A DNA stretch of 64,000 nucleotides from Solibacillus sp. FSL H8-0523 (GTDB lineage Bacteria; Bacillota; Bacilli; Bacillales_A; Planococcaceae). Under the pieces are notes generated by a model. That model had not been told where the DNA came from, ran no database searches, and worked only from the letters and a program-made list of their open reading frames with translations. Both the position numbers and the translations under genes were made by a program. Numbering within the stretch: position 1 is the first letter of the stretch; each line of letters starts with the position of its first letter. The stretch is from positions 1,488,001 to 1,552,000 of the forward strand of contig NZ_CP150291.1 in the NCBI RefSeq assembly GCF_038051985.1, read 5' to 3'. This document shows positions 1 through 40,290 of this stretch, in pieces.

Positions 1-195
1 GAAGCAAGCTTTACGGAACTTTCAAAAGATGAAGCACATGAATTACGCAAAATTCGTAATCAATTGGCGCATGGGGAACGTTCGGCAAAACATGAAGATT
101 TTATAGCGATTAAAGCACAACTAATTGATCAACAGTTCTTCATGGCAATCCAACATATCAAGCAGGAATTACGCGTAGTAACAAATGAAAATTAA
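1..195 (+). CDS. C-terminal end of a HEPN-like protein (5' part lies outside the window)
   Basis: The first base starts an open frame that runs to TAA at 193-195, giving 64 visible residues and no start codon, so the gene begins before this window. The visible part is charged and helical. It contains ELRKIRNQLAHGER, which fits the R-N-x3-H motif of HEPN-domain ribonucleases. It is the last gene before the retron RNA, on the same strand, with about 120 bp between. HEPN proteins are often toxins or phage-defence effectors, but RNxxxH also occurs in harmless helical domains. The motif is seen; the nuclease role is inference and the rest of the protein is needed to name it. Confidence 0.6.
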   Translation, partial: EASFTELSKDEAHELRKIRNQLAHGERSAKHEDFIAIKAQLIDQQFFMAIQHIKQELRVVTNEN

Positions 196-318: not shown

Positions 319-475
319 GTAAAGTAGCCGTTTCCTTAATAGGTAAGTGTTACGCTACCATTTTTCCAGGTTGCAATTAAGCTTTCGCCTTCGTTGCACG
401 AAGAAAAACAGGGGCCATGCCGACATAGTCGGAGCTTTATGGCAGATTTGCATTCGCAAAACAGGGCTACTTTAC
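319..475 (+). ncRNA. Candidate retron msr-msd RNA
   Basis: The ends GTAAAGTAGCC (319-329) and GGCTACTTTAC (465-475) are exact reverse complements and act as the a1/a2 repeats. G327, in the context TAGC, is the expected branching guanosine right after the a1 stem, as in known retrons. Inside are a weak hairpin GGTA/TACC (342-359), CTTCG-TTGCA-CGAAG (389-403), a two-part hairpin GCCAT/ATGGC (414-443) enclosing CCGAC-ATA-GTCGG (420-432), and TTTGC-ATTC-GCAAA (447-460). The downstream gene is a retron-type reverse transcriptase, the normal order. The msr/msd boundary cannot be set by eye. The RNA was inferred from structure and position only. Confidence 0.75.
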
Positions 476-482
476 AAACGAT

Positions 483-514
483 GCTGCGTAAATTCTTACG
501 CAGCTTTTCTTTTT
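483..514 (+). terminator. Intrinsic terminator after the retron RNA
   Basis: A 9-bp stem GCTGCGTAA/TTACGCAGC (483-491 and 496-504) with a four-base loop is followed by TTTTCTTTTT. It sits between the msr-msd and the reverse transcriptase gene. It could end most transcripts as free ncRNA and let only read-through make RT mRNA. Confidence 0.8.
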
Positions 515-542
515 GCAAAAATTGAAGATAGGTGAGCAGACC

Positions 543-1562
543 ATGACAAAATTAAAACCGATTATGCATGAAAAGCAAATTGCCGAGTTATTAGATGTAC
601 CGTTTCGTGAATTTTATGAAACGCTTCAAGACGAAGAACGTTATCATGCATTCGCGATTGGTAAAAAGCGTGCCGGAAAACGAATTATTTATGCACCAAA
701 TGACCAATTGAAGCACATTCAGCAGCAATTCCTACATGTATTAGATCAATACCCTGTACATCGCCAAGCGCATGGCTTCAGTAAGGGCAAGGACTTTATT
801 ACGAACGCGTCGTTGCATGTTGGAAAGAACTTTATTTTTACATTTGATGTTGAAAACTTTTTCCCATCGATTAAGCAAAGAACGGTCAAAAGTTATTTTC
901 GATCAACATTGAATTTAACGAATCATACATCAAATGTGTTAACAGATCTTGTATGCCATCCAGACGGTTTTTTACCACAGGGTGCACCAACATCACCTGT
1001 TATGACGAATCTCATTTTGTATCGTTTTGATCAGCACATGGAGGCGTTAGCGAAAAAGTACAAGTGTACGTATAGTCGCTATGCGGACGATATTACGTTT
1101 TCAACAAATGAAAATGTGTTTCCAAGCGCCATTGCGAAGCAGGATGTGGACGAGAATTGGCAAGTGAATGACAACATTGTCAAGGAATTAAAGGCTTACG
1201 GTTTGAAAATTCATCCACAAAAAGTGCATATGCAAATGCCTTCTAGTAAAAAGTTTGTTACTGGGGTTGTTGTCAATGAAAAATTGAATGTCAATCGCAG
1301 TTATATTAAACAGGTGCGCGCGGCTATTTATAATTTACAAACGAAAAAGCATTATAAGCAGGAAGTGTGTAAGGTGATTGGTCAGCAGGAGCGTCATTGG
1401 CATTTTGTTGAACGAACGCAGGTGCTACAGGCGATTCGCGTGTTACGTGGACAAATTGAGCATATTGGTAATGTGCGCGGAAAGCAGGATACGTATTATA
1501 CACAGCTTTTAAAAGCGCACCGGGCATTAATTGGTATATATCGTTATCGTAGAATTTTATAG
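543..1562 (+). CDS. Retron-type reverse transcriptase
   Basis: This RNA-directed DNA polymerase should copy part of the upstream structured RNA into msDNA, priming from the 2'-OH of a guanosine. The 339 residues contain the retron-specific NAxxH motif as NASLH (88-92), FDVENFFPSI (101-110, RT motif A), QGAPTSP (146-152), the catalytic YADD (180-183) and the retron VTG motif in FVTG (238-241). It has no group II intron maturase domain and no fused effector. The ATG at 543 is chosen because AGGTGAG precedes it; an earlier TTG at 513 lies in the terminator T-run. A cysteine-rich small gene starts 23 bp after the stop codon and is probably cotranscribed. Identity as a retron RT is firm; its retron type and effector are not resolved. 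Confidence 0.93.
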   Translation: MTKLKPIMHEKQIAELLDVPFREFYETLQDEERYHAFAIGKKRAGKRIIYAPNDQLKHIQQQFLHVLDQYPVHRQAHGFSKGKDFITNASLHVGKNFIFTFDVENFFPSIKQRTVKSYFRSTLNLTNHTSNVLTDLVCHPDGFLPQGAPTSPVMTNLILYRFDQHMEALAKKYKCTYSRYADDITFSTNENVFPSAIAKQDVDENWQVNDNIVKELKAYGLKIHPQKVHMQMPSSKKFVTGVVVNEKLNVNRSYIKQVRAAIYNLQTKKHYKQEVCKVIGQQERHWHFVERTQVLQAIRVLRGQIEHIGNVRGKQDTYYTQLLKAHRALIGIYRYRRIL

Positions 1563-1585: not shown

Positions 1586-1771
1586 ATGACAGATAAACAA
1601 TGCCCAATTTGCGGCGAGAACAATGCATGTAACGTAGCAGATGCAAAAAACTGCTGGTGCATGACTGTCAAAATCCCACAGGCATTATTAGACGAAGTAC
1701 CAAAAGACCAGCAAAGTTGTATTTGCACAGACTGTGTACAAAACTATATGAAAAAAATGAAGACACTTTAG
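1586..1771 (+). CDS. Small cysteine-rich CWC-family protein
   Basis: This 61-residue protein has eight cysteines: C6 and C9 (CPIC), C15, C23 and C25 (the CWC signature), and C45, C47, C50 (CICTDC). Such spacing suggests binding of one or two zinc ions. It matches the Cysteine_rich_CWC family, whose function is unknown. A strong AGGAGG lies eight bases before the ATG. It follows the retron reverse transcriptase by 23 bp and shares a terminator at its own stop codon, so the two genes look like one transcript. It may be a retron partner, or a housekeeping protein that happens to sit here; the sequence does not decide. Confidence 0.8.
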   Translation: MTDKQCPICGENNACNVADAKNCWCMTVKIPQALLDEVPKDQQSCICTDCVQNYMKKMKTL

Positions 1772-1787
1772 GCGTCTTCATTTTTTT
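1751..1787. terminator. Bidirectional terminator between the retron unit and the DUF3169 gene
   Basis: The stem TGAAGAC/GTCTTCA (1758-1764 and 1774-1780) is flanked by seven A on the left and seven T on the right. It can therefore end both the plus-strand CWC gene and the minus-strand membrane protein gene, whose stop codons both fall in it. Confidence 0.8.
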
Positions 1788-2460
1788 GTAGTTTTTGCGG
1801 CATAAGGCTGCTCGTGAAAATCAGTAAGCTAATTAGAAGGATAACACCGATTCCAATAATACTTACCGTTTGGTTGTTGCCTGTAAAAACAGAATAATAC
1901 ATCAGTCCAAAAATGAGAAAAACCATCAAGGTAAGGATTAAAAAGTATAGTTTATATAAAGCTTTTAGTAATAAGTACTTTTGTCCATCGTCATAGTATT
2001 CTAACGTATCCGCAATCGGCGTTTTAGATTGGGGATCAGGTGCTTTAAAGTTCGGGAATGTAAGAGAATCTACTTTACTATTTGATATAAAGAAAAATAA
2101 TGAAAACATAGTAATAATGAATGAGAACAACACAATTTCAGGTTGATCATTTCTAAAATACATAAAGCCCGTAGCGACTGAAATAAAGCCAATGATTAAT
2201 GCAGTTAATACGAAGTACGAGGCATGATACATTTTACGCTCTAATGTGTTTAAAACATAATCCTCATCATCCATTTCCTTGTTCTTTTTTAGTCCGCGCG
2301 TGATGTAGACATAGTAAATCCCCGCAATGACAAGAAAAACACTACTGACTAGATTACCGCAAAGAAACACAATTTCTTGTGATGAAGCAAAATCATATGA
2401 AGTCCACAGTTGTCGCGTGCAAAAAAACGCGAGTATGATAGCAATCGTTAATAAAATCAT
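1768..2460 (-). CDS. DUF3169-type membrane protein
   Basis: The 230-residue protein is hydrophobic with about six predicted membrane helices: near 1-20, 30-53, 78-100, 107-125, 165-190 and 196-216. A charged stretch after the second helix (KKNKEMDDEDY) and a loop with SKVDSLTFPNFKAPDPQSK resemble the DUF3169 family found in Bacillales. It overlaps the 3' end of the XRE regulator gene by four bases, so the two are translated together. XRE plus DUF3169 is a common pair, but what the membrane protein does is not known. The C-terminal coding end lies in the shared terminator. Confidence 0.75.
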   Translation of the reverse strand: MILLTIAIILAFFCTRQLWTSYDFASSQEIVFLCGNLVSSVFLVIAGIYYVYITRGLKKNKEMDDEDYVLNTLERKMYHASYFVLTALIIGFISVATGFMYFRNDQPEIVLFSFIITMFSLFFFISNSKVDSLTFPNFKAPDPQSKTPIADTLEYYDDGQKYLLLKALYKLYFLILTLMVFLIFGLMYYSVFTGNNQTVSIIGIGVILLISLLIFTSSLMPQKLQKNEDA

Positions 2461-2663
2461 TCTAATTCCTCCTGATCAAATATAAAAATTTGTTCAATCG
2501 TCTCGTTAAAGACATACGCAATTTTCGTTGCAATTAATAGTGACGGCATATATTCGTTGCGCTCGATCAAGCTAATTGTCTGGCGCGAAATTTTGGCTTT
2601 CTTCGCCAATTCGGTTTGGTTCATTCCCTCTCTGGCACGTAGCTCCTTTAATCGGTTTTTCAT
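2457..2663 (-). CDS. XRE-family transcriptional regulator
   Basis: This 68-residue protein is a single Cro/C1-type helix-turn-helix: LKELRAREGMNQTELAKKA then SRQTISLIERNEYMPSLL. It has the short C-terminal tail IFIFDQEELE that is typical of small regulators paired with membrane proteins. The ATG at 2663 is chosen over a GTG 15 bases upstream because GGAGGTGAG lies at the right distance before it. It is the first gene of a two-gene operon with the DUF3169 protein and probably represses that operon. A dyad-like stretch with repeated TTGTCA/TGACAA lies upstream (2695-2745) and may be its operator. Confidence 0.88.
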   Translation of the reverse strand: MKNRLKELRAREGMNQTELAKKAKISRQTISLIERNEYMPSLLIATKIAYVFNETIEQIFIFDQEELE

Positions 2664-2695
2664 ATTTCTCACCTCCACCTTATTGTAAATGATTT

Positions 2696-40032: not shown

Positions 40033-40059
40033 CAATTTCAAATTTACAAAAAATCAGTG

Positions 40060-40290
40060 AAGAAGACAGTAGCTTATCGGAATTTGGCAAAGCGAGTTAG
40101 GGATGGTGGGAGCCTAATGCAAAACAGATAAGTGAAACGCACTTTGGAGATGCAACCTGAATCGAGTAGGGAAGGCCGGGGAGACACCTCGTTAACAATG
40201 GAAAGCGGTCACAGTATTGTGGCAACTAGAGTGGTACCACGGGAATCGATAGCTCTCGTCTCTTTTATTAGAGACGGGGGCTTTTTTCTA
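40060..40290 (+). promoter_or_regulatory. T-box leader controlling argS
   Basis: The antiterminator T-box GAGTGGTACCACGGG (40229-40243) is unmistakable. Upstream, Stem I runs from CTTATC near 40074 to GATAAG near 40127. It has the conserved distal-loop sequence GGATGGTGGGAGCC (40101-40114). A CGC arginine codon at 40138-40140, in TGAAACGCACTTTGG, sits where the specifier is expected. Uncharged tRNA-Arg would keep the terminator open so that arginyl-tRNA synthetase is made when arginine is short. Confidence 0.92.
40251..40288 (+). terminator. T-box terminator hairpin
   Basis: AGCTCTCGTCTCT (40251-40263) pairs with AGAGACGGGGGCT (40270-40282), with one G-T pair, followed by TTTTTC. It competes with the antiterminator containing the TGGTACCACGG box. 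Confidence 0.9.

Follow-up and report, generated by a model that had tools for sequence, protein, structure and literature searches.

A divergent retron of the I-C/XI/XII branch in Solibacillus, with an upstream SEC-C/HEPN gene as its possible separate effector

A retron consists of an RNA template and a reverse transcriptase (RT) that probably makes a small DNA-RNA hybrid (msDNA) to sense phages, and retrons normally have an effector. The locus studied here lies at the start of a 64,000-nt stretch of the Solibacillus sp. FSL H8-0523 genome (the window, whose positions are used below) and raises the question of which protein serves as effector when the RT carries none, and whether the RT and the SEC-C/HEPN gene just upstream of it form one system or two. 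The sequence-only reading had called the locus a complete-looking retron. The RNA and the RT are indeed present, but there is no fused effector and the sole candidate effector is cut by the window edge. The reading we prefer, with the chances about evenly balanced, is that this separate upstream protein is the effector, in the order SEC-C/HEPN, msr-msd RNA, RT, in a retron of the I-C/XI/XII branch. That the locus represents a new retron type, in which an RT of a mostly fused branch works with a putative SEC-C/HEPN ribonuclease in trans, is held more tentatively, at somewhat short of an even chance.

The RT gene (543-1562, plus strand) encodes 339 aa without a fused effector. It starts with an ATG at 543 behind AGGTGA at 530-535, and the motifs that had been read in it directly after the RNA were located, with NASLH at residues 88-92, YADD at 180-183 and VTG at 239-241. 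The protein matched 67 PADLOC families, whose names are used here for the retron types; the 25 listed were all RT models, comprising retron types, RT_other, RT_outgroup and RT_Ec107-like. The best model was RT-Protease_XI (E 3.9e-97), with a match reaching position 322 of 510, followed by RT-TIR_XII (2e-86, to position 328 of 478 only) and RT-Toprim_I-C, and all three were matched in their RT part only. RT_IX followed far below these models at 6.5e-46, so the RT is not of type IX. NCBIfam retron_Ec67_fus was matched at 3.1e-85, under its cut-off and again in the RT part only. An AF2 model built from 36 aligned rows reached a pLDDT of 91.5 with helices up to residue 330, and Foldseek placed retron Eco2 first (E 9.1e-25), the best 18 chains all being retron RTs, with those of group II introns and DRTs ranked behind them. 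In the alignment the window RT stops after the thumb, where fused relatives continue into effectors (protease, Toprim or TIR). No trypsin-like protease domain was found in the RT or the next three ORFs, no C-terminal Toprim (the type I-C mark) in the RT, and no C-terminal TIR (the type XII mark), the protein ending first. By their defining effectors, the window retron is not of type XI, XII, I-C or IX. Pattern scans of genome contigs and viral contigs, which reach close relatives only, showed no close relative of the RT.

The tree was drawn from 117 collected RTs including that of the window, which cover part of the matches found (80 of 397, 7 of 190 records from plasmids and 1 of 55 from phages) plus 9 and 19 further RT loci from two smaller search sets. 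Twenty were dropped to give 97 rows (two without YxDD, the others near-duplicates or partial), and another 31 (11 long-branched, 20 near relatives or partial) to give 66 rows, rooted on 15 RTs of other types that the analyst designated as outgroup. In the 66-row tree the window RT fell among 51 I-C/XI/XII-type rows (100/97), which places it with retron RTs and not outside the retron clades, as the tree check proposed earlier had asked. Within this branch it stood beside the XI-like L056, L057 and L091 at 88/95, not starred; the first two come from the same class as the window and L091 from a Bacillus arachidis plasmid. The type XI rows did not form a single clade, the sampled I-C RTs were a separate clade (100/99), and constraining the window RT to group with all XI-like rows was not rejected (p-AU 0.333). 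Its own branch is long (1.59). In the first quick tree, of 97 rows, the window RT grouped at 98 with five other RTs on long branches, a grouping flagged by a long-branch warning, and the placement beside XI appeared only after those long-branched rows were dropped. A fused tail, defined as more than 60 residues beyond YxDD+165, is present in 45 of the 51 RTs of the branch; the six unfused ones are that of the window, L092, L093, L174, L191 and L141, the last of which stops at a contig end.

Directly before the RT gene lies the presumed msr-msd RNA, all of whose elements are on the plus strand. Its a1 arm GTAAAGTAGCC (319-329) and a2 arm GGCTACTTTAC (465-475) are perfect 11-bp complements, as had been noticed in the first reading, and the 157-nt span folds with the a1/a2 stem closed (MFE -46.6 kcal/mol, z -2.94, equalled by 1 of 200 shuffles), at stem pair probabilities of 0.96-1.00. 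Inside it the fold showed an msr hairpin at 342-359 (GGTA/TACC pairing, inner GTG/CGC), two hairpins at 361-408 and 414-443 that presumably form the msd (361-443, provisional limits), and a small hairpin TTTGC-ATTC-GCAAA at 447-460 preceding a2. In a terminator scan the RNA proved to be separated from the RT gene by a 9-bp terminator-like hairpin followed by a T-run (483-514, the hairpin at 483-504 plus tail), so both the internal hairpins and the terminator previously claimed before the RT were recovered. When the RNA was folded with its flanks and the terminator hairpin, z fell to -3.99 and none of 200 shuffles was equal; the presumed msd folded as DNA was weaker (z -1.87, 10 of 200 shuffles). 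Arms of at least 11 Watson-Crick pairs arose in 8 of 100 dinucleotide shuffles of a 380-nt stretch. Because arm length alone is not rare, the evidence for the RNA is the arm combined with the fold, the position and the RT. The preceding leader (196-318, 123 nt, from the HEPN gene to the RNA) is A+T-rich (27.6% GC) and holds a TATAAT at 243-248, with no clear -35 found beside it; promoter-like sites in the region (8, against a shuffle mean of 11.3) showed no excess over shuffles.

Regarding the branch point, the proposal of G327 did not hold, as this base is itself part of the a1/a2 duplex, where it pairs with C467 at probability 1.0. By analogy, G330, in GTTTCC, is the more likely branch point, because it is the first unpaired base after the a1 stem and relatives have a similarly placed G. 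In the I-C type relatives L007 and L094 a G stands immediately after the arm, followed by ATTTT, and XI-like relatives carry TTGATTT (L056, L058 and L093) or a variant of it (L057, L091 and L092) a few bases past the arm. Among ten relatives with about 30-40% RT identity, seven had an arm pair upstream of the RT that was reached by at most 5 of 100 shuffles, and by the same shuffle measure L056, L059 and L060 had none. Rfam gave three matches up to E 5 at positions 200-560, all far under the gathering score and none above chance. Since 0 of 10 control loci of related RTs matched at the gathering score either, Rfam says nothing for or against a retron RNA here. Taken together, the RT family models, the tree, the predicted fold and the upstream RNA support the earlier reading as a retron. 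A retron-clade RT with NA..H, YxDD and VTG stands behind an msr-msd RNA with complementary a1/a2 ends, and the locus is well supported as a genuine, divergent retron of the I-C/XI/XII branch.

The last 64 aa of the 381-aa SEC-C/HEPN protein are encoded at window 1-195 (plus strand, from the host-genome ORF). The whole gene starts about 950 bases before the window (G000:C1:1487050-1488195, G000 being the window genome; L006:9050-10195 in the locus stretch around the window, where 10195 is window 195), and its stop lies 123 nt upstream of the retron RNA on the same strand, with no terminator-like site found in between. The N-terminal SEC-C motif matched Pfam at 2.1e-8. At the C-terminus the sequence RNQLAHGE contains an HEPN-type Rx4H motif, and R336, N337, A340, H341, G342 and E343, together with the SEC-C cysteines, do not vary among the five aligned members. 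The conserved Rx4-6H motif of HEPN RNases is thus present, and no Pfam HEPN profile matched the window protein at its cut-off: HEPN_RiboL-PSP scored 15.7 bits against a cut-off of 28.4, and 18.8 bits with the isolated C-terminal end. That end gave HEPN_RiboL-PSP at 0.0017, HEPN_Apea at 0.0027 and HEPN_Swt1 at 0.0042, all below cut-off, and the best Pfam HEPN E among the five family members was 5.5e-4. A Dynamin_M match (0.00033) on the same end was taken as chance helix similarity.

Four full-length relatives of the SEC-C/HEPN protein (L204-L207) were found in 398 genomes of the class, with E 3.7e-23, 1.1e-12, 6.0e-12 and 4.7e-9 and 21-27% identity, and seven more matches there lay at E 0.005-0.01. 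L207 carries extra Sel1 repeats. Fifteen other SEC-C proteins of relatives are alike at the SEC-C end only, L042 being weakly alike over residues 4-216, and none of the 15 has an RN..AHGE-like motif near the C-terminus (L049 and L038 have looser matches elsewhere). Because the motif is present in all five full-length members and absent near the C-terminus of these 15 proteins, the upstream gene, as judged from alignment, belongs to a family of SEC-C proteins in which an HEPN-type motif is conserved. Matches to the query occurred in 81 of 100 relatives, none past residue 216 of 381. One weak match (6.5e-4) was found in 260 other genomes of the order and, besides its own genome, three weak ones near E 0.009 in 398 genomes of the phylum; the class (398), order (261) and phylum (398) sets overlap. 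Searches by tblastn found none in plasmids, with the whole protein or without SEC-C, and none in phages. Pattern scans of viral and genome contigs, with a reach of close relatives only, gave no close relative, and when viral contigs were scanned with L204, 80 of 140 loci were retained, and in none of these 80 did the match extend beyond query residue 81 of 389, at the SEC-C end.

In three genomes of the same genus (G002, G013 and G015) the anti-sigma gene stops 5-9 bp before CWC begins, and the gene order around the site is mostly the same. In the window genome 2,770 bp separates the two genes, and the clear genes there are SEC-C/HEPN, RNA and RT; besides SEC-C/HEPN and RT, no same-strand ORF of at least 80 aa lies between anti-sigma and CWC, and no winged-helix gene was seen. 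The SEC-C/HEPN gene and the RT are both missing at the site in these three genomes, the SEC-C/HEPN matches in relatives stop short of the C-terminus, and the RT matches in other genomes of the genus are far weaker (the best is 2.0e-29, at another place in G013). By genome comparison, the two genes are thus accessory and occupy the same site. The junction is not that of a clean single insertion, an idea weakened by a displaced terminator. The terminator stem CACCTAGT...CTAGGTG is present a single time in each of G000, G002 and G013 and is missing from the 13 other genomes of the genus. It lies 3' of CWC in G002 (G002:C1:1532841) and G013 (G013:C1:1534383), but 3' of anti-sigma and upstream of HEPN in the window genome (L006:8872-8894, window -1128 to -1106). 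Since it follows CWC in the relatives and precedes SEC-C/HEPN here, the CWC gene has moved to the far side of the retron. The direct repeat ATAGGTGA, which stands before the RT and after anti-sigma, was weighed as the scar of an insertion and rejected, a coincidence of ribosome-binding sites being the likely cause.

Two neighbouring features were seen at the site. A DUF3169-type membrane protein and an XRE regulator (window 1768-2678, minus strand) form a second small accessory insert adjoining the retron; neither has a counterpart in the 14 kb compared from each of G002, G013 and G015. A Nucleoside 2-deoxyribosyltransferase-family gene lies 1.8 kb upstream of SEC-C/HEPN (L006:6804-7283, window -3196 to -2717). 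Type II retrons use a nucleoside 2-deoxyribosyltransferase fold. As an effector this gene was rejected, being conserved in the three relatives without a retron at the site. The gene label NDT appears in PMC12548924.

Several observations support reading the SEC-C/HEPN gene, the RNA and the RT as one system: the RT lacks an effector that is usually fused in its branch, while the sole candidate lies 123 nt upstream on the same strand; both genes are jointly missing from the site in three relatives; and three other unfused RTs of the branch have RN..SH neighbours. In L092, L093 and L174 the next gene encodes 301, 262 and 241 aa with RNHRSH, RNIASH and RNESSH, respectively, in the last quarter. 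Among 77 fused RTs, of which 66 had any neighbour ORF, none had an RN..SH neighbour, and among 37 unfused ones, 34 of them with a neighbour ORF, three did. The window, L061 and L073 are not rows in this count, the other unfused RTs lie mostly outside the I-C/XI/XII branch, the motif was picked after being seen, and two of the three loci, L092 and L093, are sisters. No RN..SH protein adjoins the likewise unfused L191, whose neighbours are different. The partners of L174 and L093 are related (BLASTP 3e-6 over 55 aa); no similarity was found between those of L092 and L093, nor between the window SEC-C/HEPN protein and the L174 partner, and PADLOC had no match for the three partner proteins. When viral contigs were scanned for the partner pair of L174 and L093, L174's own contig was the only one to come back. 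An AF2 model of the L174 partner alone was set aside (pLDDT 37).

The one-system reading is weakened by the HEPN profile matches below cut-off, by the junction that is not a clean insertion and the differing GC of the two genes, and by the fact that the XI-side placement came after row removal, with a long window branch. Furthermore, no RT was found within the 15-16 kb fetched around each of L204-L207, showing that the SEC-C/HEPN protein can exist without a retron, and a SEC-C motif occurred near other RTs in 0 of 112 loci (in fetched flanks, many of just 1.5 kb). The pairing therefore rests on a single locus.

The locus was compared with known systems. Type XI retrons (RT plus trypsin-like protease) share the best RT model, the tree neighbours L056 and L091 and, in L091 and L058, the presence of a long a1/a2 pairing immediately ahead of the RT; in contrast, the window RT has no protease, a terminator-like hairpin sits between its RNA and RT, and its RNA lacks the GGTAGAAT present before a2 in L056, L058, L091 and L093. 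Type I-C (Ec67/Eco2, RT-Toprim) provides the nearest solved structure and, in L007 and L094, a G directly past the a1 stem as in the window, whereas the window RT has no Toprim and the sampled I-C RTs are a clade apart. In PMC12405507, the Eco2 Toprim is described as an RNase and fused effectors are reported in about a third of 3395 retron-like RTs. For type IX retron-Kva2, PMC13405049 describes an HEPN RNase effector of about 19 kDa, without the canonical motif, that works with a winged-helix protein. Like the window locus, Kva2 has a separate HEPN protein in an operon with the RNA and RT (PMC13405049). Unlike Kva2, the window RT is far from type IX, no winged-helix gene was seen at the locus, and the protein has 381 aa with SEC-C and RNQLAH. 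The stand-alone L204-L207 share its architecture and invariant motif at 21-27% identity, and differ in having no RT nearby and, in L207, in the Sel1 repeats.

The next most likely reading, which we consider less likely than the preferred one, is that a real retron stands beside an independent, stand-alone SEC-C/HEPN gene, the two being unrelated accessory genes at one spot. It agrees with the existence of SEC-C/HEPN relatives without an RT, two of the four upstream of apparent type I R-M genes (hsdM and hsdS by eye, in L205 and L206), with the lack of a SEC-C motif near the 112 other RT loci, and with the GC of the two genes (HEPN 35.7%, RT 38.8%). It also has a precedent in Retron-Sda1, a type III RT beside a HipA/DUF3037 system that is said in PMC12548924 to function alone, the Retron-Sda1 RT and RT-DNA being uninvolved in the defence tested there. 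Sda1 resembles the window in having an RT beside a defence-type gene unexpected for the RT type, discussed in PMC12548924 as effector replacement, and differs in RT type and in partner. An independent neighbour would, however, leave the RT without an effector, which is unusual for a branch in which 45 of 51 are fused, and also has against it the joint absence of both genes from one site in three relatives and their arrangement on the same strand, 123 nt from the HEPN stop to the RNA with no terminator-like site between.

A retron that lost its fused effector, with msDNA still made or the RT and RNA decaying and no killer gene at the site, is improbable. The RT does stop where relatives run into protease, Toprim or TIR, the next three ORFs hold no trypsin-like domain, and the tail of its tree neighbour L057 has no Pfam match at all; yet the RT motifs are intact and the predicted fold confident, a candidate effector adjoins the RT, and an RN..SH protein stands beside three other unfused members. 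Far less probable still is that the retron partner, accessory or effector, is the CWC protein downstream of the RT (1586-1771, plus strand; Pfam PF14375, 1.6e-14). Its gene starts 23 bp past the RT stop, lies together with HEPN and RT between two terminator-like sites, and has been displaced from its place before the ancestral terminator. An A+T-rich, terminator-like palindrome follows at 1751-1787, partly inside the CWC gene end. On the other hand, it encodes 61 aa with a Cys-rich CWC domain only, is found in 7 of 16 genomes of the genus (its own included) and stands beside anti-sigma in three without RT or HEPN at the site, as befits a host gene family and a probable passenger. Finally, it is hardly credible that the locus is not a retron and holds another bacterial RT (DRT or group II-like) with a chance upstream hairpin, since against the 8 of 100 shuffles that reach the arm length and the lack of an orthologue for covariation stand the PADLOC families, the 18 best solved folds, the NA..H and VTG motifs and an RNA that folds better than shuffles.

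With the SEC-C/HEPN protein as separate effector, we infer the following course. The RT would prime on the branch G, likely G330, and copy the msd part into DNA to give msDNA, and the RT-msDNA complex would keep the putative HEPN protein inactive. Once the msDNA was damaged, bound or displaced by a phage activity, the HEPN protein would be set free and might then dimerise around Rx4H and cut cellular RNA, perhaps tRNA, and this cutting would stop growth before phage release (abortive infection). If this is true, the locus extends a retron branch known for its fusions by a further class of effector, allows fused and separate effectors to be compared in nature on related RT cores, and suggests that HEPN RNases recur as retron effectors. 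Taken with the RN..SH proteins beside L092, L093 and L174, it would mean that the branch recruited HEPN-type RNases more than once where a fused effector is absent. Effector swapping then becomes testable, by asking which partner is restrained by the RT-msDNA core. Should the HEPN gene prove independent, what is left is a divergent but ordinary retron RT that has no effector. In the open-licence PMC literature no paper was found that joins retrons with SEC-C, or SEC-C with HEPN and defense, and searches on 'type XI' retrons narrowed by further terms likewise gave none.

Several loci met during the survey are recorded in their own right. Two cyanobacterial plasmids (L092:4917-8991 and L093:3839-7915) carry an unfused XI-like RT, an RN..SH protein and a protein of about 685 aa, in an apparent three-gene retron layout; that of L092 has a WYL match (E 5.5e-21). 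On an IMG/VR contig (L174:3833-5880) an unfused RT is followed directly by the 241-aa RN..SH protein related to that of L093. The XI-like RT at L057:1408-3102 ends in its fused tail without a Pfam match, by eye a possible degenerate protease. SEC-C/HEPN genes placed directly upstream of apparent hsdM/hsdS genes lie at L205:6824-10956 and L206:4622-8795, in two genomes of one genus. Elsewhere in the window, a T-box leader (Rfam RF00230, 116.5 bits) is present at 40048-40266 on the plus strand.
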